DNA of 17,012 nucleotides. Origin: Candidatus Latescibacterota bacterium. GTDB taxonomy: Bacteria > JAAXHH01 > JACQVL01. The stretch covers positions 1 through 17,012 of the forward strand of contig JACQVL010000338.1 in NCBI GenBank assembly GCA_016209865.1, read 5' to 3'. Below the pieces are notes generated by a model. The model was not told the origin of the DNA and did no database searches. It was given only the letters and a program-made list of their open reading frames with translations. Both the position numbers and the translations under genes were made by a program. Positions 1 through 16,964 of this stretch are shown here, piece by piece (position 1 is the stretch's first letter; each line of letters starts with the position of its first letter).

Positions 1-1672
1 CGGGCGTAGCCGCGTCGATGTGGTAGACGAGGCGGCCCAGCGTGGTCATGCCGGGCGGGATGAGCGCATGACCGGTGGTGTAGATGAGCACAGTGGTCGT
101 CTCCTGGCTTGTGGACGCAGCGGCCAGAAAGCCGAGGCTGGCAACCGAATCGCTCAGGCTCTCGAAGTGGACGTGGGCCGGATCACCAGGTACGATTTGG
201 GCCTGCAGGCCATCGACCGGCGTGGTGGTGGGATTGGTGAGGGTCAGTGGCATGGCTGCTGTCTCGCCAGTGGCACCGAAGACATGGCTAAGGGTGAGGT
301 GAAGGAGTTGTGGGGGTGAGATCGCGGTTCCCTGAACCGGAACATGGAAGATTGGCGTCCCAGGATCGTTACTCAGGATCAACAATGTATCCACAGCGGT
401 TCCTGTGGTCATTGGGGAGAACGTGACTATGACAGCGTGACTGTCACCAGGCGCGATGGTGAAGGCTGTATCACTGACCGTAAAGAATGGATCGTTGATG
501 TCGGTTACGGCCAGATCAGCAGTGCCGGTGTTCTGGACAGTCAATGCCTTCGTCGTACTTTGCCCGACAAGAATGGTTTCAAATGCCAGCGAAGTCGGTG
601 TAACCATGAGATGAGGTGACGGCGGAGTCAAGCGCAAGATCACCAGACCGGCATCGCCATCGGCCACATAAATCAGCCCATTGCTGACGGTGATATCATT
701 CGCATTGCCGGGAGTATCATAGGTCCCTACAAGTTGGGGACTCAAAGGATTCGAGATATCAAGAACCTGAATTCCAAACGGCCCATTCGTTACGTAGGCA
801 TAGGAGCCCTGAATGAAGACTTTCGTAGCATACGGCGGTGTAGTTGCCGTCGCAACCAACCTGGGATTTGAGGGGATACTGATATCGATCACATGCAGCC
901 CGACGCCATAAGCCGCAACATACGCATACTGCCCGGCGACAAACACACCTTCCGGATTCCCTGATAAATTGAGACTGGCGACTTGCTGAGCTGTAGCGGG
1001 GTTTGAAATATCAATCACTAACATACCAGCGGCACTATGCACGAGATACCCATAGTTCCCGGAAGGAAAGAGTTCATACGCCCAGCTTGGAGTGCCGAGA
1101 CCTTTCAATAATTGGGGATTCGATGGATTGGCTACATTCACTATCTGAAGGCCGAGAAAATCGTAGGCAATATAGGCAGTGGTGCTCTGTACAGCGACAT
1201 CGTAGGCATATCGCCCGGAGACCACATATTGCCCTGTTAATGTCGGCTGGGTCGGATTTGTGACATTGATGATTTTCAAGCCGCCAGCTTGATCAGCCAA
1301 ATAGACGTAATTCCCTACAACAGATAACCCTAAACCAGGACCATCGGTCGCGAGACTCCCTGCAAGCACCGGATTGGCCGGATTCCCGATATTAATGACT
1401 TGTAGCCCGTTTGGGCCATCCCCGATGTACGTATATTGACCACTGACAGCCACGCCATTGGCACTCCCCGGTGTATTATATTGTCCCACTAACGTGACTG
1501 AGCCAACGGCGGCTGTGACGGGCGTAGATGAGCCCACGAAGAGGAGAACCCAGAACAGCGTCCATGCCCACACCATTTTCCTCTGAGACAACCAAACTTT
1601 CCAGAGACGATTCAAGCGGTGAGAGCGCCGTGGATCAGGAATACGAGCGATAGACACAGAGTAGAGAAACAT
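1..1672 (-). CDS. Exported LVIVD-repeat beta-propeller protein with C-terminal ASH/choice-of-anchor-like domains (3' end cut by window edge)
   Basis: The frame is open from an ATG at 1672 to the left edge (557 residues seen, no stop). An SD GGGAG precedes the ATG, and the stop of the upstream paralogue is 13 nt away, so the two are probably co-transcribed. Residues ~33-56 are a hydrophobic signal (MVWAWTLFWVLLFVGSS, then TPVTAA). An inner ATG at 1576, with AGAGGA just upstream, may be the real start and would give a compact signal peptide. Residues ~58-350 hold seven ~42-residue LVIVD units with the pattern YVY(V/L)AD..GGL.IIDVTNP, predicting a closed seven-bladed propeller. From ~355 an ASH/choice-of-anchor-D-like segment follows (SLAFETILVGQSTTKALTV, later ILSNDPGTP). 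A second beta-sandwich starts at ~455 (PLTLTNPTTTPVDGLQ) and resembles cohesin-type modules. It is probably a periplasmic or surface protein. The ligand is unknown, and the C-terminal anchor, if any, is outside the window. Its codon use is more AT-rich than the central operon. Confidence 0.85.
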   Translation of the reverse strand, partial: MFLYSVSIARIPDPRRSHRLNRLWKVWLSQRKMVWAWTLFWVLLFVGSSTPVTAAVGSVTLVGQYNTPGSANGVAVSGQYTYIGDGPNGLQVINIGNPANPVLAGSLATDGPGLGLSVVGNYVYLADQAGGLKIINVTNPTQPTLTGQYVVSGRYAYDVAVQSTTAYIAYDFLGLQIVNVANPSNPQLLKGLGTPSWAYELFPSGNYGYLVHSAAGMLVIDISNPATAQQVASLNLSGNPEGVFVAGQYAYVAAYGVGLHVIDISIPSNPRLVATATTPPYATKVFIQGSYAYVTNGPFGIQVLDISNPLSPQLVGTYDTPGNANDITVSNGLIYVADGDAGLVILRLTPPSPHLMVTPTSLAFETILVGQSTTKALTVQNTGTADLAVTDINDPFFTVSDTAFTIAPGDSHAVIVTFSPMTTGTAVDTLLILSNDPGTPIFHVPVQGTAISPPQLLHLTLSHVFGATGETAAMPLTLTNPTTTPVDGLQAQIVPGDPAHVHFESLSDSVASLGFLAAASTSQETTTVLIYTTGHALIPPGMTTLGRLVYHIDAATP

Positions 1673-1685
1673 TTTCAGGTCTCCC

Positions 1686-2867
1686 TCATCTCACCTCAAG
1701 GGGCGGCGCAAATTGCAGGATGACCAGCCCGACCGTCCCGTCCGCCACGTAGATCAGCCTGTTGGAAACAGAGAGGTCGTTGGCGCTGCCCAGGGTTTTG
1801 CAGGTTCCAACCCAGTGAGGAGCGGCAGAATCAGAGATGTCGAGGATATGCACGCCGCCGGGGCCGGCGGCTACATACGCATACCGTCCACTGACCATGA
1901 CCCGGTGGGCCAGGCCGGGCATGGCGCAGGTGGATACCAGGGTGGGATTGGACGGAGCGCTCACGTTGACGATGTGGAGCCCTCCATCATAGGCCGCCAC
2001 ATACGCATACTGCCCGACAGCGAATACGCCCATGGGATTTCCCGGTAGATTCAGCGAGCCGATCCGACGGGCTGAAGAGGGTTCGGAAATCTCGATGACC
2101 ACCAATCCGGCGGTATGCTGGACATGGTAGCCATAGCGTCCCGCTGGGAAGAACTCCCGAGACCAGTTCTGCGCGCCCAGTCCCTTGACGAATTGAGGAG
2201 CGGCGGGATTGCGCACATCGACGATGTGAAGCCCCAGGAAGTCATACGCGATGTAGGCGAACCCCGCTTGAAGCGCGACGTCGACTGCCCACCGCTCATC
2301 CTCCGACACCTGCTGGATATAATGCCCCGTCAGCACAGGGTGCGCGGGATCGGTGACATCGATGATTTTCAATCCTCTGGCCTGGTCGGCCAGATAGACA
2401 AGGTTTCTGATCACCGTCAGTCCCATGGCGTCGCCGTCGGTCCGGTATGTTCCGACCAGGCGCGGCACGGCCGGTTTCCCGACATCGATGATGCGTAGAC
2501 CACCGCTCCCCCCACCGAGGTATGAGTATCGACCGCGGACGGCGACACCCTTCGCAATGCCCGGTGAATCACACTGCCCTATAAACTTCACTGTCCCCAA
2601 CGCATGGGCCGGTATCGTGTCAGTATCGATCAACCCGTATTTGACGACCACACGAAACAGTTCCGGCACATTGTGCACCCTCAGTTTGTCCATCAGATTT
2701 TTCCGGTGTTTTTCCACGGTCTTCAGCGTGATCCGCATCCGGTCCGCCATTTCGCGATTCTTGCAACCCTCCACAACGAGTTGAAGCACCTGGCGCTCCC
2801 GAGGAGTCAGCACGATGGATGGATCGGGAATTTCATCAGGATTACGGTAAGGATGGCGCTTTTTCAT
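1686..2867 (-). CDS. LuxR/NarL-type HTH fused to a seven-bladed LVIVD beta-propeller
   Basis: 393 residues. Residues ~20-80 are a GerE/LuxR-type DNA-binding domain: LTPRERQVLQLVVEG, then NREMADRM, and the recognition helix region TLKTVEKHRKNLMDKL. There is no receiver, PAS or autoinducer domain, and no signal peptide, so the protein should be cytoplasmic. From ~91 to 388 it carries seven LVIVD blades that align unit for unit with the downstream gene. Shared features include GLKIIDVTDPAHP, AYIAYDFLGL and LIYVADG near the end. By family knowledge the HTH binds DNA as a dimer. I infer that the propeller senses a ligand or protein partner. The ATG at 2867 has only a weak GGA upstream, but the protein begins just before the HTH as expected. 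The promoter at 2954-2981 would give a leader of about 80 nt. Fusion of these two domains looks unusual to me. The assignment of each domain is firm and the function is not. Confidence 0.88.
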   Translation of the reverse strand: MKKRHPYRNPDEIPDPSIVLTPRERQVLQLVVEGCKNREMADRMRITLKTVEKHRKNLMDKLRVHNVPELFRVVVKYGLIDTDTIPAHALGTVKFIGQCDSPGIAKGVAVRGRYSYLGGGSGGLRIIDVGKPAVPRLVGTYRTDGDAMGLTVIRNLVYLADQARGLKIIDVTDPAHPVLTGHYIQQVSEDERWAVDVALQAGFAYIAYDFLGLHIVDVRNPAAPQFVKGLGAQNWSREFFPAGRYGYHVQHTAGLVVIEISEPSSARRIGSLNLPGNPMGVFAVGQYAYVAAYDGGLHIVNVSAPSNPTLVSTCAMPGLAHRVMVSGRYAYVAAGPGGVHILDISDSAAPHWVGTCKTLGSANDLSVSNRLIYVADGTVGLVILQFAPPLEVR

Positions 2868-2953
2868 CGGAACATGTCCGGTTGCTCTATGACCACCCGC
2901 GGATCCTAAACGCGATCATGTTTGTCGACCGCCAGCAGGCATCATCCTATTTT

Positions 2954-2981
2954 TGTATAAGTCAAATTCTTGATCTGTCAA
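2954..2981 (-). promoter_or_regulatory. Sigma-70-type promoter for the LuxR-LVIVD / LVIVD gene pair
   Basis: On the minus strand a perfect TTGACA (2976-2981) is followed after 16 nt by TATACA (2954-2959). Transcription should begin near 2947. The surrounding 30 nt starts GTATTGAC and ends TTGACTTATAC, so TTGAC occurs twice as a direct repeat, and GTAT/ATAC frame the site. This could be an operator for the LuxR-type protein itself, which is a guess. The rest of the 2868-3156 gap shows no gene and no clear terminator for the hydrolase. Confidence 0.6.
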
Positions 2982-3156
2982 TACGGGTTTACCCTACCAT
3001 ATGTATTTTTTGAGGATTTTGGAGGGTATATGAGGGTCTGATCAGCAAGGCTGGCCAGAGCAGCATCTTCAATGTATTCTGGAAGACCGGATGGATGTAG
3101 AACGGGGGTTCTGCAAACTGCGATCGTGGGAAGATAGTGTTCTCTTCTCTTGAAGC

Positions 3157-3999
3157 CTACACCCAGCCGGGAGGAGTCTCGCGCGGCTCGCCCGATGGGG
3201 CGACTCCCGCCCGCACGTCCCCCAGAAACTGCTCCAGGGCCGTGTTGAAGTCCGACGGCTGCTCCAGCATCAGGTAGTGTCCGCACCGGAAGACGGCAAC
3301 CAGCCGGGCGTGCGGGACGTACTCCATCCAGGCCCGCACACTCGGCCAGTAGTCCATCTCGGCGGCTCCGATGACCAGCACTGGGCAGGTGAGAAACGAG
3401 GCCGCCGCCGCGTTGCAGAAGGTCAGCAGGCCATAGTGCGTCGCATCGATGACCTGACGGGGCGTCTCCGGGGTGGCCGCCAGCGCCTCGGCCACGAACG
3501 CCGCCCGGCCGCTGGCGGGGGAGCTGCAGTACCGGCTCATCATGGCCTGAGCGGCCTGATAATCCTGCGCTCGTGCCACGACGAGCTGCCTCCATTCCTC
3601 TCGATTCTGCGGAAGCACCTCACACCCCGAATCGACGACCACGATGCCGGACACCCGGTCGGGGAAGTCGAACGCATACCGGAGCGCGATCATACCGCCC
3701 AGGCTGTGGCCCACCAGGATGGGACGCTCGATCCGCAAGGCGTCGAGCAACGATGCCAGGTCATCGACGAACGTCTCGATGGAATACCGTCCGCCTGGCG
3801 CATCGGAACGGCCATGGCCCCGGAGGTCGTAGACCAGCACCGTAGTCAGCCGTGCAAAGTAGGGCATCTGCAACTGCCAGTGCCAACAGTGACCCCCGCC
3901 GCCGTGCAGGAATACCAGAGCCGGCTCGCCGTCGCCGTCGCGTTCGTAGTAGACGTCGATCCCGGTCGCCAGCCGGAGCCGTCCCCCCATCGCCGCCAT
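3157..3999 (-). CDS. Alpha/beta hydrolase fold protein
   Basis: 280 residues from the ATG at 3999. The open frame extends upstream to 4047, but a strong SD GGGAGGG lies 7 nt before 3999, and the hydrolase fold begins there (RLRLATGIDVYYERDG). Family landmarks are the oxyanion-loop motif HGGGG (residues 32-36), DLRGHGRS (58-65), the nucleophile elbow GHSLGG with Ser99, a likely acid Asp216, and the catalytic His241 in CGHYLMLEQP. No signal peptide or membrane segment is seen, so it is cytoplasmic. The family covers esterases, C-C hydrolases, haloperoxidase-like enzymes and lipases, and I cannot choose a substrate. It is separated by repeat-rich DNA on one side and a promoter on the other, so it looks like a single-gene unit. 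A hairpin at its SD may control translation. Confidence 0.88.
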   Translation of the reverse strand: MAAMGGRLRLATGIDVYYERDGDGEPALVFLHGGGGHCWHWQLQMPYFARLTTVLVYDLRGHGRSDAPGGRYSIETFVDDLASLLDALRIERPILVGHSLGGMIALRYAFDFPDRVSGIVVVDSGCEVLPQNREEWRQLVVARAQDYQAAQAMMSRYCSSPASGRAAFVAEALAATPETPRQVIDATHYGLLTFCNAAAASFLTCPVLVIGAAEMDYWPSVRAWMEYVPHARLVAVFRCGHYLMLEQPSDFNTALEQFLGDVRAGVAPSGEPRETPPGWV

Positions 4000-4284: not shown

Positions 4285-5415
4285 TCACCCAATCCTCAGC
4301 ATCCGCTCGACCGCGCGGACGGCCCGGACGCGGATGTCTTCCGGCACGTCGATGACGTACTGAATGTCGGTCAGGGATTTGAGCGTATCTTCGAGGGTGA
4401 TCTGATTCATGTGGGGGCACCGGACGCTGCACAGCCGCAACATCTCTTTGTCCGGGTTGGCCACCGCGACGTTCTCCCCCATCGCGCACTCGGTCAGCAG
4501 CAGGTACCGGGGCGCGTGCGTGTGCTCGACGTACTTGATCATCGCCGACGTGCTGCCCGAAAAATCCGCCGCCTCGACGACCTCCGGGCTGCACTCCGGA
4601 TGGGCTAAGATGACGACATCCGGGAACTGCCGCCGGACGTCGAGAATATCCTGCACGGTAAACTGCTCGTGCACCTCGCAGCGGCCATGCCAACCGATGA
4701 GCTGATAGTCCAGGCCGGTCCCGCCGTTCCCCGCCGTCCCGCGCGACGGGAAGATGATGTGCTTGCCCGTCTCCCGCGCCACGTTCTTTGCCAGATACTC
4801 ATCGGGGAGGAAGATCACCGTGTCGGTGCCTAACGACTCCACGACCGCCGCCGCGTTGCTCGACGTGCAGCAGACATCCGACTCCGCTTTCACGTCAGCA
4901 TAGGTGTTGACGTACGTCACGACCGGGACGCCGGGGAACCGCCGCTTGAGCGCCCGCACGTCTTCGGCGGTGATGCTCGCCGCTAAGGAACATCCGGCTT
5001 TTGCTGAGGGCAGGAGGACGGTCTTCTCCGGGTTGAGGATCTTCGCGGTCTCCGCCATGAACCTGACCCCGCAGAAGACGATAATGTCTTTATCGGTCTG
5101 CGCGGCTTTCCGGCTGAGCTCTAACGAATCACCAGTGTAATCGGGGATCGAGTGGTAGAGCGCGGGCTCCATGTAGTTATGGCCCAGGATGACCGCGTTC
5201 TTGACCTTCTTGAGGCGGTTGATTTCAACGGCGAGCTGTGCTTTATACCGCAATTCGAAATCGGGCACGACGTCGTACAGCCGCTCTTTCATGCGGATGT
5301 ACATGTCGTCAGCTAACATGAACTCACTGTCGTAATCGATGAGCGTGTGGAGCGGATCGGGCAGTGTGGGTTGCACCGCGATATCCCCGATCGATGAAGT
5401 CATGGTATTGTGCAT
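4285..5415 (-). CDS. nadA: Quinolinate synthase NadA
   Basis: 376 residues. It condenses iminoaspartate with dihydroxyacetone phosphate to give quinolinate in de novo NAD synthesis, using an oxygen-sensitive [4Fe-4S] cluster. Family signatures seen are ILGHNYM (76-82), GDSLELS, FCGVRFMAETAKIL (114-127), AGCSLA, CTSSNA, GCHG-type GWHGRCEVHE (241-250), AHPEC and RCPHMNQ. The likely cluster ligands are Cys142, Cys246 and Cys333. The start at 5415 has only a weak AAGAGAA upstream; an ATG at 5403 is the alternative. The 76-nt gap to the SDR gene has a small hairpin. No nadB or nadC is in the window. Placement at the end of an operon with Fe-S maturation genes fits its cluster requirement. The assignment is firm. 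Confidence 0.97.
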   Translation of the reverse strand: MHNTMTSSIGDIAVQPTLPDPLHTLIDYDSEFMLADDMYIRMKERLYDVVPDFELRYKAQLAVEINRLKKVKNAVILGHNYMEPALYHSIPDYTGDSLELSRKAAQTDKDIIVFCGVRFMAETAKILNPEKTVLLPSAKAGCSLAASITAEDVRALKRRFPGVPVVTYVNTYADVKAESDVCCTSSNAAAVVESLGTDTVIFLPDEYLAKNVARETGKHIIFPSRGTAGNGGTGLDYQLIGWHGRCEVHEQFTVQDILDVRRQFPDVVILAHPECSPEVVEAADFSGSTSAMIKYVEHTHAPRYLLLTECAMGENVAVANPDKEMLRLCSVRCPHMNQITLEDTLKSLTDIQYVIDVPEDIRVRAVRAVERMLRIG

Positions 5416-9574: not shown

Positions 9575-10474
9575 CTACATGAATTCTCGGATGAGCTCCG
9601 CGCCTTGCTCGGCGGTCAGGCCGAGCGGCAGCTTGGCGAGCGGGCCCTGCTTGAGCGCCAGGTCGCCGTCCTCGTACGTCGGCCGGTCGATCTGGTAGAC
9701 GACGCCCAAGGGAATCTGGGCGCCCCACTCGTACGCCTTCTGGAGCGCCCCGTGGAAGTCCGTCTTCTCGTACTCGCCCTCTTCTAATTTGTACACCCGC
9801 TCCTTGAACCAGGCGTAAGAGTTGATCTTGTTGTACGTCACACACGGGCTGAACACATCGACGAGCGAGAACCCTTTGTGCTGGATCGCCTGCGCGATCA
9901 CGTCCGTCATGTGCTTCGCTTCCCCGGAGAAGGCGCGCGCCACGAACGTCGCGCCGCTGACCAGGGCGAGGGCGAGCGGGTTGAGGGGCATCTCGATGTT
10001 GCCGTTCGGGGTCGACTTCGTTTTATGGCCGATCTCCGTCGTCGGGGAGGCCTGGCCGGTCGTCAGGCCGTAGATCTGGTTGTCCATCACGAGGTACGTC
10101 AGGTTCAGGTTCCGCCGCATCGCATGGATGAAATGCCCCACTCCGATCCCGTACCCGTCGCCATCCCCGCCCGTGACGACGACGTGCAGGCCATGATTCC
10201 CCAGCGCCGCGCCGGTGGCGACAGCGATCGCCCGGCCGTGGATGCTATGGAACCCGTATGCGTTGAAGAACCCGGGCAGGTTGGACGAACAGCCGATCCC
10301 GGACACGACGAGGACGTCTTTGGGCTGGATGCCGAGTTTCGCCGTCGCGCCCTGGAGCGCCCGCAACACCCCGAAGTCCCCGCATCCCGGACACCAGTCC
10401 GGCTCGACCATGCCTTTAAACAACTCAACCGGCAGCTCAACGCGCGGTTCAGCGACCGTTTCGACTTGTGCCAT
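9575..10474 (-). CDS. korB: 2-oxoacid:ferredoxin oxidoreductase beta subunit, probably 2-oxoglutarate specific
   Basis: 299 residues. It is the thiamine diphosphate and 4Fe-4S subunit. Cys28 and Cys31 in DWCPGCGDFG, Cys62 in GIGCSSN and Cys211 in SPCVTYN are the usual cluster ligands. GGDGDGYGIG (102-111) and MDNQIYGLTTGQ (130-141) form the TPP/Mg2+ site. The enzyme interconverts 2-oxoglutarate plus CoA with succinyl-CoA, CO2 and reduced ferredoxin; neighbouring isocitrate dehydrogenase is the argument for 2-oxoglutarate over pyruvate. The ATG at 10474 lies 26 nt inside korA, with SD AAGGAG 7 nt upstream, so translation is likely coupled. It is cytoplasmic. The family is certain and the substrate likely. 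Confidence 0.94.
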   Translation of the reverse strand: MAQVETVAEPRVELPVELFKGMVEPDWCPGCGDFGVLRALQGATAKLGIQPKDVLVVSGIGCSSNLPGFFNAYGFHSIHGRAIAVATGAALGNHGLHVVVTGGDGDGYGIGVGHFIHAMRRNLNLTYLVMDNQIYGLTTGQASPTTEIGHKTKSTPNGNIEMPLNPLALALVSGATFVARAFSGEAKHMTDVIAQAIQHKGFSLVDVFSPCVTYNKINSYAWFKERVYKLEEGEYEKTDFHGALQKAYEWGAQIPLGVVYQIDRPTYEDGDLALKQGPLAKLPLGLTAEQGAELIREFM

Positions 10475-12230
10475 TGAGAATCTCCTTCACATGGTTCACG
10501 ATATAGAGCGGCTCCATCGGCTCCCCGTCGTATTTCAGGATCGTGGCGTCCGGGCTGATCCCGGTCTCCGCCCGGATGTGACGGCCGAGCTGGCCGGTGA
10601 AATTCTGTTCGACCAGGACCTTCAGCTTGCAAGAGTTGAGGATGGTTGCGACCTCATCCGTATGGAACGGGACGAGGTACTTAATCTGGAGGTTGTTCGT
10701 CTTGATCCCTTCCTGGGCGAGCAGGGCGATCGCGTCCCAGATCACCCCTTGCGTCGACCCCCAACTGATGAACGTGATGTCCGCGTCCGCCGGCCCGTGC
10801 AGCGTGGGCGCGGGCAGGTTGCGCAGGAGGCCCTCCAGCTTCCGCATCCGTTTCTGCATCATCTTGATGCGCATCAGCGGGTCGGTATACACGTCGCTGA
10901 TGAGGATGCTGCGCTCGTCGTGCTCGTCGGACGCGCCGACGAACATGTTGCCGGCATCCCCCGGCAGGCTCCGCGGAGAGATCCCCGACTCGGTCACCAG
11001 GTACCGCTTATACTCCCCGTTGCCGTTCTCATTCGGTTCCGCCAGTTCACCCCGGTCGATCGTGACGTTGAAGTCGAACGCCTCCGGGTCGGCGGTCTCG
11101 TTATGCTCGGACAGGAGCAGGTCGGAGATGATCGTGACGGGAAGCTGGTACTTCTCTGCCATCTGAAACGCCTCGACCGTCGTGTTATACGTATCGACCA
11201 GGTCGGCCGGGGCGACGATCATCCGGGGGTACTCGCCCTGAGACGCCCCGAACACCTGGTTCAGGTCGCCCTGCTCCGTCTTTGTCGGCAGGCCGGTCGA
11301 CGGCCCGCCCCGCTGCACCTCAAGGATGACGACCGGGACTTCCGCCATCCCGGCCATCCCGATGGCTTCGGTCATCAACGCATACCCCCCGCCGGACGTC
11401 CCGCACATCGCCCGCACACCCACGTGTCCGGCGCCGATGGCCATGTTCACGACCGCGAGCTCATCCTCCGCCTGCTTCACGCACACCCCGTACTCGGCCG
11501 CGTGGCTGGCCATGAAGTGGAGGAGGGACGACGCCGGGGTCATGGGGTAGGCGGAGTAGAACCGGCAGCCGGCCATCAGGGCGCCGATCCCGATCGTCTC
11601 GTTGCCCGTCAGGACGGGGCGGGACTTGCGGCTGTACGTCCATCGGTAGTCCATCGCCGGATGGTTGGCCTTCGCGTACTCGTACCCGGCTAAGGCTAAG
11701 TCGACGTTCTGGGAGATGACCGCCTGCCCCTTCCGGGCGAAGATTTCCTCGTACATCTTGTTGAGCGTCTCCAGGTCGAGCTGGAGCAGCCAGATGAGCG
11801 CGCCGAGCAGGACGGTGTTCTGCATCACCGTATCCAGTCGCACCCCGTACCGGTCGGCGACCGTCTTCATCAGGTCCTTGATCGGGATGGGGACAGCCCG
11901 GACGCCCGGCTTGAAGACGCTCTCGTCCACGTGGAGCTTGTCGCCGTTGTAGATGATCACCCCGTGCTCGTTCACTTCGGCGGCGTGTTGATCGATCGTA
12001 TCCTGGTTGAGCGCGATCATCGCGTTCAACTGATCGCCGGGTGAGTAGACCTTCTCCTCGGCGGCCCGGATTCGCAGCCAGATGTGCCCGCCCCGGATGA
12101 CCGACTGGTAACTATTATAGGCATACATGTGGAGGCCGAGCCGGGCATACGCGCGCGCGAACGTGTCGCCCGTCTTGTCGATCCCGTCGCCGGCCGCTCC
12201 ACCGACTCCGACCGTCACTTCTTGCGCCAT
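10449..12230 (-). CDS. korA: 2-oxoacid:ferredoxin oxidoreductase alpha subunit (gamma-alpha fusion), KorA type
   Basis: 593 residues from the ATG at 12230, which has GAGGG 9 nt upstream. An ATG at 12239 touches that SD and is less likely. The N-terminal ~190 residues are the gamma domain (VGVGGAAGDGIDKTGD, then SYQSVIRGGHIWLRIR). The alpha/pyrimidine-binding domain follows from ~209 (GNETIGIGALMAGCRFYSA, then YPMTPAS), with EDELAVVNMAIGA, MCGTSGGGYALM and RGGPSTGLPTKTEQGDL. The C-terminal third has the transketolase-C-like region (ITFISWGSTQGV, then VLVEQNFTGQLGR). This two-gene layout is that of KorAB enzymes, which need a separate ferredoxin. It lies 44 nt below isocitrate dehydrogenase, whose product is its presumed substrate. 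It may run oxidatively or in a reductive TCA cycle; the sequence does not decide. Confidence 0.94.
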   Translation of the reverse strand: MAQEVTVGVGGAAGDGIDKTGDTFARAYARLGLHMYAYNSYQSVIRGGHIWLRIRAAEEKVYSPGDQLNAMIALNQDTIDQHAAEVNEHGVIIYNGDKLHVDESVFKPGVRAVPIPIKDLMKTVADRYGVRLDTVMQNTVLLGALIWLLQLDLETLNKMYEEIFARKGQAVISQNVDLALAGYEYAKANHPAMDYRWTYSRKSRPVLTGNETIGIGALMAGCRFYSAYPMTPASSLLHFMASHAAEYGVCVKQAEDELAVVNMAIGAGHVGVRAMCGTSGGGYALMTEAIGMAGMAEVPVVILEVQRGGPSTGLPTKTEQGDLNQVFGASQGEYPRMIVAPADLVDTYNTTVEAFQMAEKYQLPVTIISDLLLSEHNETADPEAFDFNVTIDRGELAEPNENGNGEYKRYLVTESGISPRSLPGDAGNMFVGASDEHDERSILISDVYTDPLMRIKMMQKRMRKLEGLLRNLPAPTLHGPADADITFISWGSTQGVIWDAIALLAQEGIKTNNLQIKYLVPFHTDEVATILNSCKLKVLVEQNFTGQLGRHIRAETGISPDATILKYDGEPMEPLYIVNHVKEILNGTSRNGR

Positions 12231-12274
12231 GGAGATCATCCCTCACGAAGGTTAAGGTGAATGACTCTTCCGTT

Positions 12275-13412: not shown

Positions 13413-14750
13413 TTACGGAACGCTGCTCCCATACCGCGTCCCGGGGTCGACCGAGACGGCGACCGGACGGCTACCCTCGGAGAGCGCCAGGAAGCCGAGC
13501 AGTTGGCCGCCCGCGGTGAATTTGAGCACCGTTCGATTGCCCGCGTCTGCCACCCAGCAGTCCCCGGTCTGCGCGTCCGTAGACACGCCCAACGGCGTCC
13601 GCAACCCGGTGATCGTCTGATGAAACCCTATGCGCTGGCGGATGTCGTACCCGTTCGGGATGCCGGTCAGGAGCTTGATCACCGCCTGCTGTCCCGGGTC
13701 CGCCATCCAGAGGCTGCCGCTCGTCGCGTCATACGACCCGGCGGCCGGGTCGGCGAACCCGACAACAGTCGTCATCCGGACGCCCGTCCGGGTCAGCTTC
13801 ACTACCTGCTTGGCCGCCCGGTCGATCACCCAGCACCCGCCGTCGGCCGGGTCGGCCACCACCCCGATGGGCGCCTCGAACCCCCCGGCTGCAAGCCGGA
13901 TGTCCCCGTTCACGCCGATGTTCGAGACCTGCCGGTTGGCCAGGTCCGCCACCCAGCAGCTCCCATCCATCGGGCTGACCGCCACCGCCTGCGGGTCGGT
14001 GAACGCGAACACACGGAACTCGACCGTCCCATCCCGCTTGACGCGGACGACGTCGCTCGCCTGCCCGATCGTGCCGCCCCCTTCTGCCACCCAGCACGCC
14101 CCATCCCGCACGTCGACGTCGATCGCGCCAGGCCGCGTCAGGCCGGTGACGACCACATCCAGCGCCCCGTCGGCGGTGAACCGGACGAGCGCCCCGTTGA
14201 GCGGGTCCGACGTCCAGCACCCGCCGTCGTTGGGGTCGGTGACGACCGTCGCGGGGTCGAGGAACCCGCTCACCCCCACCGCGATCGCATAGCCGTCCGC
14301 CGACGTCCGGAACAAGGCGCTCGCCCCGCGGTCTATGACCCAGCACGACGACGGGCCGGGGGTGGCCTCGACCGGGTCGGACGACCGGCTCTCCGACCCC
14401 GATGTGATCCGCGCCGTCAGGCTGTACTGATACGTCTTCCCGTTGACTACCTGCAGGTCGACGTACCGGTTGTACTCCACGGACACCGGGATGTCGAGGA
14501 CGGACGAGGCATCCCCGCCCACTTCGGACCGGCGCAGACGGTAGCCGCTCAGGTCGGCGACGGGAAGCCGCTCCCAGGCGAGCGTCACGCGACGGTGCTC
14601 GGCCACCGCGACGAGGTTCTGGGGACGGCCGCCCGTCGACGGGTTCAGCGGGTCGAGGGGGTTGACCCGCGCCCGACGTTCACACCCCGCCCCGACGAGG
14701 CCGCCGAGGACGACCAGGATGACGGCGTACCGCGCCATGATGAGCCTCAC
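13413..14750 (-). CDS. Lipoprotein with fibronectin-III-like domain and seven NHL-like propeller repeats
   Basis: 445 residues from a GTG at 14750 that overlaps the upstream TGA by four bases; GGAGG lies 7 nt before it. An ATG at 14738, with GAGG 6 nt upstream, is equally possible. A hydrophobic signal (YAVILVVLGGLVGAGC) ends in a lipobox-like GAGC, so Cys23 should be lipidated. Residues ~43-132 look like a fibronectin type III domain (LAWERLPVADLSGYRLRR). Seven repeats follow, each with a (G/S)CWVAD or close variant and then about 10 residues to V.(K/R)(L/F)T..G, as in CWVADAGNRTVLKF. This predicts a seven-bladed NHL-like propeller in the envelope. Translation is coupled to the PEGA gene. 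It is likely a binding or assembly scaffold; no catalytic motif is seen. Confidence 0.85.
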   Translation of the reverse strand: MRLIMARYAVILVVLGGLVGAGCERRARVNPLDPLNPSTGGRPQNLVAVAEHRRVTLAWERLPVADLSGYRLRRSEVGGDASSVLDIPVSVEYNRYVDLQVVNGKTYQYSLTARITSGSESRSSDPVEATPGPSSCWVIDRGASALFRTSADGYAIAVGVSGFLDPATVVTDPNDGGCWTSDPLNGALVRFTADGALDVVVTGLTRPGAIDVDVRDGACWVAEGGGTIGQASDVVRVKRDGTVEFRVFAFTDPQAVAVSPMDGSCWVADLANRQVSNIGVNGDIRLAAGGFEAPIGVVADPADGGCWVIDRAAKQVVKLTRTGVRMTTVVGFADPAAGSYDATSGSLWMADPGQQAVIKLLTGIPNGYDIRQRIGFHQTITGLRTPLGVSTDAQTGDCWVADAGNRTVLKFTAGGQLLGFLALSEGSRPVAVSVDPGTRYGSSVP

Positions 14751-15703
14751 TGGCCCGCCTCCGGCTTCGATCCGTCTGAACGGAACACGCGCGACACGAA
14801 GAAGAAGTAGAACGACGCGAGGAAATTCACCTGGGCCGCCCCGATGAGCACCCCGGCGATGCGATCGTTCCGGTTCGCCTGCTGGTAGAACCGCTCCAGT
14901 TCGACCGGGTCTCCGGTCCGCTGATACCGGTCGTACGCCTGGTTCGCCCGGTGCCGCGCGATCAGTGCCAGTCCGCCGCAGACCAGGCCCGTCCCCAGCG
15001 TGGCAGCGCCGAGGAGATGGTGCGACCGGCGCGGGTTGACCTGTGCCTGTGAGACCTGCGGTCTCCTGGCCGCGTCGCCCGACGGTTTCAGCTCCGCCTT
15101 CAGCGTCTGGCGTGTGGTGTCACTGACGGAGACCGGCAGGGTCATGCGTTCATACCCGCGTTTCTGGATGGCGACCTCGTGCAGGCCGGGCGCCAGGTTC
15201 CGCAACCGCAGCGGGGTGGTGCCGGCCAGTACGCCATCGACGTAGACGTTCGCGTCGAACGGCACGGACACCACCGTCACAACCCCGACGAACACCGCGT
15301 GGACGGTGACCGTCTCGTCCGGCCCGACGGTGACCTCCTGCACCCAGTCCCGCATGTCCCAGTCGGCCGGGTTCGGGTTGACCACACGGACGGCGTGGCG
15401 TCCGGCCGCCACCGCGTAGCCGGGAATGGGGGTCGTCCCGATGAGGGCATCATCGACGTACACCGCCAGCCCGGAGGGGGCTGATGACACGTTCAGCACC
15501 CCTCGACCCGGCCTAAGCTCCTGCGCCGCCGCGGGCAGGATCATGACATGCAGCAGGCTGAGGATCAGCGTAAATGACACGAAGGATGAAGGGCGAAGGA
15601 CGAAGGACGAAACAACCCAATCATTCAAGGTAAGAGCAAACGTCCAGGCGCAGAGCAGACCTTTCTTCTCTCGTTCTTGGTTTCTTCGTCCTTCGTCCTT
15701 CAT
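14747..15703 (-). CDS. PEGA-domain envelope protein with C-terminal membrane segments
   Basis: 318 residues if started at the ATG at 15703 (AAAGGA 6 nt upstream). Two PEGA domains are clear: ~69-110 (APSGLAVYVDDALIGTTPIP) and ~141-183 (PFDANVYVDGVLAGTTPLRL). PEGA modules are extracytoplasmic beta domains of surface and cell-wall-associated proteins. Two hydrophobic segments lie at ~229-249 and ~282-303. The first ~41 residues are encoded largely by GAAGGAC repeats and a repeat-bounded insert, and look unlike a signal. An in-frame GTG at 15580 would give a clean signal peptide (SFTLILSLLHVMILPAAAQ), though I see no SD there, so the true start is open. It lies 12 nt below the PQQ-repeat lipoprotein gene and overlaps the next gene by 4 nt. 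Confidence 0.85.
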   Translation of the reverse strand: MKDEGRRNQEREKKGLLCAWTFALTLNDWVVSSFVLRPSSFVSFTLILSLLHVMILPAAAQELRPGRGVLNVSSAPSGLAVYVDDALIGTTPIPGYAVAAGRHAVRVVNPNPADWDMRDWVQEVTVGPDETVTVHAVFVGVVTVVSVPFDANVYVDGVLAGTTPLRLRNLAPGLHEVAIQKRGYERMTLPVSVSDTTRQTLKAELKPSGDAARRPQVSQAQVNPRRSHHLLGAATLGTGLVCGGLALIARHRANQAYDRYQRTGDPVELERFYQQANRNDRIAGVLIGAAQVNFLASFYFFFVSRVFRSDGSKPEAGQ

Positions 15704-15714
15704 CCTTCGTCCTT
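15581..15714. repeat. Inverted pair of GAAGGAC heptamer arrays around a ~75-bp insert
   Basis: Four and a half units (GAAGGAT, GAAGGGC, GAAGGAC, GAAGGAC) run on the plus strand at 15581-15612. The same units run inverted at about 15681-15714. The arms could pair into a long stem. The right arm supplies the SD and start codon of the PEGA gene, and the left arm codes for residues ~31-41 (SSFVLRPSSFV). Confidence 0.8.
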
Positions 15715-15715
15715 T

Positions 15716-16876
15716 CTATTGCGCGGCTCCCGTGAACGCATACACATACCGGTCTTCTGACCCGACGAGGAGGAGGCCATCAACCACGACCGGGGAGACG
15801 GTGATGCTTCCCCCGGTCTCGTACTGCCATAGAAGCCGGCCGGAAGCGGTATCGAGAGCATACAGCCGTTTATCGGACGACCCGACGTAGAGGACGGAGC
15901 CAACCAGCAGCGGCGTCCCACGAATCACCCCGTTCGTGGCGTACCGCCAGCGGAGCGTCCCAGTCGCGGCATCGACACAGGAGAGCGTCCGGTCGTTCGA
16001 CCCGATGAAGACGCGTCCCTCCTTGACGACCGGGCTTCCGTACAGGCTGCCGTCGGTCGTCCATCGCCACCGGAGGCGGCCGGTGGCGGCGTCGAGGCAG
16101 GAGAGCGTCCGGTCATAGCTCCCGACGTACACCGCGCTGTCTGCGACAACCGGGGCGGCGGGAATGCTCCCCCCCGTCCGGAACGACCAGCGGAGCGTCC
16201 CGACCTCCGCGTCGAGCGCGTACAGATGGTCATCGTCCGACCCGACGAAGACGAGGCCATACGCGACGGCGGGGGAGGAGCGGACCGGGGCTTTCGTCAG
16301 AAACCGCCAGCGAGTGTCCCCCGTCTCCGTGTCGAGCGCGTACAGGGCATTATCCTCCGCTCCGATGTACAGGGTGTCATCGACCAGAACGGGAGACGAC
16401 CAGCCCACCGGAAGCGGGCGCTGCCATCTCGTCCGGTTGCGCTGGAGGTCGACGGCCAGCAGACCGGTCTGGTCCCGGTCAGCCCGGCCGGAGAGCGCCA
16501 GGAACAGAACGCCCGCTTTGAGGACGGGCGCCGCCTGCGCGACACCGCCGACTTTGCTGAACGCCGCCTGGACGCCCGTCCGCAGGTCGACGGTATAGAT
16601 TCGATGGTCGGGCATCGGCAGGTAGACCATCCCGTTCTCCACGACGGGCGGGGCGAGTAGGGGGGCGTACAGCTTCGACTTCCAGACCACGGTAAGCGGC
16701 GGCTGGAACGTCCCGGCCGTCTGGACTCTCACCCCCCCCGATGCGGGCCGCATCTCCGCCTTCACCGCACGCTCCGCGCCAGCGTGCGACCCGCTGCAGG
16801 CGGCGAGGAGGAGGAGCAGGAAGAGCAGTGGTCGGGGGTCAGGGGTCGGGGGTCGGGAAAGAGGAGAATCTAACAT
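15716..16876 (-). CDS. PQQ-repeat (BamB-like) beta-propeller lipoprotein
   Basis: 386 residues from the ATG at 16876, with AGGA 8 nt upstream. The frame stays open to 16951, but that part is repeat DNA. The signal is LLFLLLLLAAC with lipobox LAAC, so Cys27 should be lipidated. About eight 40-residue blades follow, with the PQQ-like pattern LYALDTETG..RW, SSPV and VYVGS.D (for example TLYIGAEDNALYALDTETG). Family members include BamB of the outer-membrane assembly machine and PQQ dehydrogenases. The fold is certain, but I see no dehydrogenase catalytic residues, so a scaffold or BamB-like role is more likely. Blades with LSCLDAATG and LSCVDAATG are close copies 120 nt apart. It heads a three-gene envelope set; its promoter is probably beyond the right edge. 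Confidence 0.88.
   Translation of the reverse strand: MLDSPLSRPPTPDPRPLLFLLLLLAACSGSHAGAERAVKAEMRPASGGVRVQTAGTFQPPLTVVWKSKLYAPLLAPPVVENGMVYLPMPDHRIYTVDLRTGVQAAFSKVGGVAQAAPVLKAGVLFLALSGRADRDQTGLLAVDLQRNRTRWQRPLPVGWSSPVLVDDTLYIGAEDNALYALDTETGDTRWRFLTKAPVRSSPAVAYGLVFVGSDDDHLYALDAEVGTLRWSFRTGGSIPAAPVVADSAVYVGSYDRTLSCLDAATGRLRWRWTTDGSLYGSPVVKEGRVFIGSNDRTLSCVDAATGTLRWRYATNGVIRGTPLLVGSVLYVGSSDKRLYALDTASGRLLWQYETGGSITVSPVVVDGLLLVGSEDRYVYAFTGAAQ
16830..16857. repeat. Heptamer array (GGTCGGG) x4 inside the lipoprotein signal region
   Basis: Units GGTCGGG, GGTCAGG, GGTCGGG, GGTCGGG are contiguous. They code, on the minus strand, for the Pro/Arg-rich stretch RPPTPDPRP (about residues 7-16) just before the hydrophobic core of the signal peptide. 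Confidence 0.8.
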
Positions 16877-16917
16877 ACGCTGTGTCCTGCGACCCATCAT
16901 GACCCCCATCCCCCGGT

Positions 16918-16941
16918 CCCTTCCCCGCAAGGGGGGAAGGG
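16918..16941. repeat. GC-rich hairpin upstream of the lipoprotein gene
   Basis: Perfect 9-bp arms CCCTTCCCC (16918-16926) and GGGGAAGGG (16933-16941) enclose GCAAGG. I know similar CCC...GCAAGGG hairpins as common intergenic repeats in many bacterial genomes. It lies within the open frame upstream of the chosen start, which argues that this part is not coding. Confidence 0.65.
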
Positions 16942-16964
16942 GAAGAGCCATTCGGGTGATGACT

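Follow-up and report, generated by a model that had tools for sequence, protein, structure and literature searches.

A DNA-binding domain and an LVIVD propeller in one chain

The DNA analysed here (the window, 17,012 nucleotides) is one whole contig of a metagenome-assembled genome of Candidatus Latescibacterota, which consists of 356 contigs and is 83% complete. Close to one end of this contig a gene for a helix-turn-helix (HTH) domain fused to an LVIVD beta-propeller has a neighbour 13 nt downstream and in the same orientation, a gene for a secreted LVIVD paralogue, which is cut by the contig end (Table 1). On the other side, 289 nt of intergenic DNA separate the ATG of the fusion gene from an alpha/beta-hydrolase gene.

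Table 1. Features of the HTH-LVIVD locus; positions are those of the window
Feature	Positions	Strand	Basis
HTH-LVIVD fusion protein P0001, 393 aa	1686..2867	-	intact ORF, Pfam, AlphaFold2
GerE/NarL-FixJ-type HTH, fusion residues 19-73	2649..2813	-	PF00196, EsrB 7vim match
Junction/linker, fusion residues 77-91	2595..2639	-	pLDDT dip, homology borders on both sides
Seven-bladed LVIVD beta-propeller, fusion residues 92-387, 28 strands	1707..2594	-	Pfam, AlphaFold2, VIA-align
Intergenic DNA ahead of the fusion gene, presumed promoter/operator	2868..3156		motif and palindrome scans
Secreted paralogue, at least 557 aa: signal peptide, seven LVIVD repeats, ASH/choice-of-anchor D	2..1672	-	Pfam, NCBIfam
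Signal-peptide-like stretch of the paralogue, MVWAWTLFWVLLFVGSSTPVTA	1511..1576	-	by eye, hydropathy
Propeller of the paralogue	620..1531	-	aligned to fusion residues 82-389; tree

The base composition of the contig is uneven, the GC content being 55-56% in positions 1-3000 and mostly 61-70% in the rest, with 57-64% in the other contigs sampled. Three adjacent envelope- or propeller-like genes occupy the opposite end (13413-16951, reverse strand) and encode a Vgb-lyase-like propeller (below the cut-off), a PEGA-domain protein and a PQQ/BamB-like propeller. Two further genes on the reverse strand were compared with their relatives. The alpha subunit of a 2-oxoacid:ferredoxin oxidoreductase (10449-12239) is 57% identical to proteins of some genomes outside the phylum and about 49% identical to those of its own order, suggesting from sequence comparison either horizontal transfer or a misplaced contig; nadA (quinolinate synthase, 4285-5415) has a match in only one other of 16 genomes of the phylum, at 40% identity.

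The borders that a sequence-only reading had given for the fusion gene were right, and the reading frame between them is unbroken from ATG to stop. That reading had also described a complete GerE HTH followed by seven LVIVD blades, with neither a receiver domain nor a signal peptide nor a membrane segment, and each part of the description is borne out. With Pfam, GerE scores 63.5 bits (cut-off 23.5) and LVIVD is recognized in seven separate stretches with 193.5 bits (cut-off 20.2). In the scan of the genome the GerE domain of the fusion reaches 67.5 bits, near the 74-78 bits of the three strongest other GerE genes there, and NCBIfam assigns the first part of the protein to response-regulator HTHs and the second, weakly, to choice-of-anchor B. 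No receiver domain was detected by Pfam or NCBIfam, only 18 residues lying ahead of the HTH, and the hydropathy scan revealed no signal peptide or transmembrane segment, the highest 19-residue value (1.39) falling inside the last blade. The best PDB match of the HTH is EsrB (7vim, E 1.3e-14), the stretch of the recognition helix reading SLKTVETHRLNLM in the fusion and TLKTVEKHRKNLM in EsrB; the alignment with the DNA-binding domains of EsrB, SsrB and FixJ is free of gaps, the recognition helix included.

The full-length structure prediction proposed in the sequence-only reading agrees with this division of the protein. AlphaFold2, run on the whole chain with an alignment of 31 rows, gave a model with a mean pLDDT of 91.9 and a pTM of 0.79, in which four HTH helices (residues 22-32, 37-44, 48-61 and 67-76) are followed by exactly 28 propeller strands (seven times four) between residues 92 and 387; the linker is modelled weakly, with a block pLDDT of 63 at residues 81-90. 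Comparison of the modelled propeller by VIA-align retrieved the designed seven-bladed v13WRAP-T (7big; Z 36.9, rmsd 1.5, 266 residues) and many WD40 propellers at about Z 35. For the model, this comparison returns generic propellers alone and is a match of fold and no more. The natural reading of the gene product is a soluble DNA-binding protein: DNA binding is the most likely activity of a soluble protein with so good a GerE HTH, as predicted from sequence and model, whereas the roles of "regulator" and "sensor" are inferred from the domains alone.

The secreted neighbour and the origin of the joint

The secreted paralogue, which was absent from the earlier description of the locus, sits next door and explains where the propeller of the fusion came from. 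Its signal peptide was judged by eye, with the start taken at the internal ATG at 1576, and the hydropathy of this stretch reaches 1.64. Outside these two genes no LVIVD match was found in the genome. Their propellers are 56% identical, the paralogue being the closest relative found for the propeller of the fusion, and they are sisters with 100/100 support in a tree of 20 propellers.

The borders of homology on both sides locate the joint. Homology to other HTHs extends to about residue 84, propeller homology begins at about residue 82-88, and homology to the paralogue starts at residue 82; in the alignment the propeller of the fusion begins where the mature paralogue would begin, past its signal peptide. 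The nearest HTH relatives found belong to response regulators of the same phylum, where they form the C-terminal domain and are up to about 53% identical; these response regulators reach their stop codon at the point where the fusion runs on into the propeller. The end of an HTH is thus joined to the start of a mature propeller with few residues between. Comparison of the sequences suggests that the secreted gene was duplicated and that the signal peptide of one copy was exchanged for the HTH of a lineage-native response regulator, the order of these events being our inference.

Divergence of the two propellers sets the age of the event in perspective. Synonymous sites are saturated (pS 0.78) and non-synonymous sites are not (pN 0.28), with identities of 67, 78 and 32% at the three codon positions; the fusion is therefore no accident of recent date, nor a join that a repeat produced during assembly. 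Alongside the architecture, the paralogy and the gene order, purifying selection on the propeller pair since the duplication is established. The fusion has kept 101 of the 150 LVIVD consensus residues and the secreted copy 97 of 150, and codon make-up does not shift sharply at the joint between HTH and propeller. The branch of the fusion propeller is the longer one (0.73 versus 0.30), which as a sign of faster evolution counts against the functional reading favoured below.

Rarity of the architecture and its place among known systems

The full fusion protein was searched against the 16 genomes of the phylum, against LVIVD-rich phyla and against a broad sample, in overlapping sets that amount to roughly 600 genomes, and no second GerE-LVIVD protein was present among the matches listed. 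Matches covering the propeller mostly begin at about query residue 85-110 or later, and none of the few that start earlier spans both HTH and propeller, again among the matches listed; in the loci that were fetched, the only ORFs matching both parts are copies of the fusion gene itself. Contig collections searched for orthologues gave one HTH-only match among genome contigs and none among viral contigs, and the tblastn matches listed for plasmids and phages cover, to judge by their ranges, either LVIVD or the HTH but not both. The best plasmid match (Nostoc, query 47-384) was rejected, its full reading having an N-terminal hydrophobic stretch and no HTH. The literature search found no text naming LVIVD together with LuxR.

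On the one hand, the architecture is as unusual as the sequence-only reading had held: the many described proteins of the same kind that it regarded as fatal to its proposal were found neither in the genomes nor in the literature searched, and no other example is among the matches listed for plasmids and phages. On the other hand, its "new regulator class" is not upheld, because the protein is a singleton from one metagenome-assembled genome with no second member in the genomes searched. This single occurrence in an 83%-complete assembly, with no orthologue found, also counts against the functional reading.

LVIVD-repeat proteins (PF08309) are known as secreted or surface proteins (PMC2447325), and the remark in the sequence-only reading that they come mostly from exported proteins holds for those relatives whose starts are legible: judged by eye, the majority of the remaining LVIVD ORFs that have a readable start open with an export-like hydrophobic stretch. 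The fusion shares the seven-bladed LVIVD propeller with these proteins, but whereas the secreted relatives examined have an export-like start or lack an HTH, here the HTH replaces the signal peptide. No ligand of LVIVD propellers was found in the literature searched, which is a further point against the functional reading. With response regulators of the NarL/FixJ type (SsrB, EsrB, FixJ; PF00196) the HTH is held in common; those proteins have a receiver, whereas the fusion has none and carries its HTH at the N-terminus with the propeller after it. PedR-type standalone LuxR HTH proteins (NF052366) likewise have an HTH without a receiver, but the model, which has 74 positions and no propeller, gives the fusion 37.6 bits, far under its cut-off of 120.

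Beta-propellers as inputs of DNA-binding regulators are already known from the hybrid two-component systems of Bacteroidetes (Reg_prop; PMC3243724). In those hybrids, however, a periplasmic propeller of another family is combined with a transmembrane segment, a histidine kinase and a receiver (PMC3243724), parts that the fusion lacks. The membrane-integrated one-component regulators of ToxR/CadC type resemble the fusion in layout, with an N-terminal DNA-binding domain and a C-terminal sensor in one chain (PMC10269533). They differ in having a transmembrane helix, where the fusion has a linker of about 15 residues and a hydropathy nowhere above 1.39. Their DNA-binding domain is a winged HTH, and forms with PD40/TolB-like propellers exist. 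An input-type domain and a DNA-binding domain in one chain, with no phosphotransfer domains, give the fusion a one-component layout, as a statement about layout only. By sequence and model, it is a protein that combines parts of two known families.

Putative regulatory role and alternatives

Our results favour, with moderate confidence, a soluble cytoplasmic regulator of the one-component type, born of tandem duplication and the exchange of a signal peptide for an HTH, which would putatively control its own transcription unit. HTHs of the NarL/FixJ type usually bind DNA as dimers, and in NarL-type proteins the dimer contact is generally made by the last helix of the HTH. In the fusion a short, flexible linker would join the HTH to the first, presumably closing, strand of the propeller. 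The propeller may bind a ligand or a protein partner in the cytoplasm, which would alter either dimerization of the HTH or its access to DNA; since the last HTH helix leads via the short linker into the propeller, a propeller ligand could control dimerization. The target is probably the two-gene unit itself, secreted paralogue included, autoregulation being the simplest target. Scans of 2860-3157 for promoters, terminators and palindromes gave no result that exceeded shuffled sequences: no sigma-70-like site was found, and the best palindrome was no better than those of the shuffles (96/200); this lack of an outstanding operator palindrome or promoter counts against the regulatory reading. A redox role for the cysteines at the same position of blades 1, 6 and 7 was considered and dropped, as secreted relatives have Cys there too.

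What the propeller would do within such a regulator could take a more specific form. Many WD40 propellers act in protein-protein docking or scaffolding, and among solved structures the fusion propeller is nearest in fold to docking propellers of the WD40 type (beta-TrCP, RACK1 and TLE1, for example). As a sub-case of the favoured reading, the propeller might bring another regulator or an RNA polymerase component to DNA instead of sensing a small molecule. We regard this as possible but tentative, because a likeness of propeller folds at 10-15% identity shows no function and LVIVD is a sequence family distinct from WD40. It is also conceivable, if quite improbable, that the two genes form an inside/outside pair, in which the internal copy with its DNA-binding head would read the ligand or partner of the secreted copy, or failed export, and feed back on the shared unit.

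The alternative to any regulatory role is a one-off fusion, in which the HTH would be a passenger on a surface-type protein that has lost its export, or the whole protein would be decaying. The occurrence in a single genome among the matches listed, the longer branch of the fusion and the absence of an upstream operator that stands out are all in its favour. Yet the ORF is unbroken despite saturated synonymous sites, and random decay over such a time would break the frame; the HTH and blade consensus residues are retained, and the AlphaFold2 model is confident throughout both domains. We consider this explanation unlikely. An error of assembly or binning that fused an HTH gene with an LVIVD gene is very improbable, the sequence evidence making an artefact unlikely even though the window is a single 17-kb contig of a metagenome-assembled genome, the joint lies 2.6 kb from the contig end and GC is lower in the first 3 kb than further in. 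The joint is in frame and at the borders of both domains, with almost no unexplained residues between; at the DNA level the two propellers are only 59% identical, and the longest word they have in common, 18 nt, is also the longest direct repeat on the contig, leaving no repeat that could have misled the assembly. Relatives of the HTH are found within the same phylum, and the tetranucleotide composition of the contig agrees with that of the other contigs of the genome (r 0.93).

If the fusion is a regulator as favoured above, the large LuxR-type family would gain a new input domain. A surface protein has apparently been turned into a gene regulator through duplication and replacement of its export signal by a DNA-binding domain, and the secreted sister next door offers a direct comparison for what LVIVD propellers bind.
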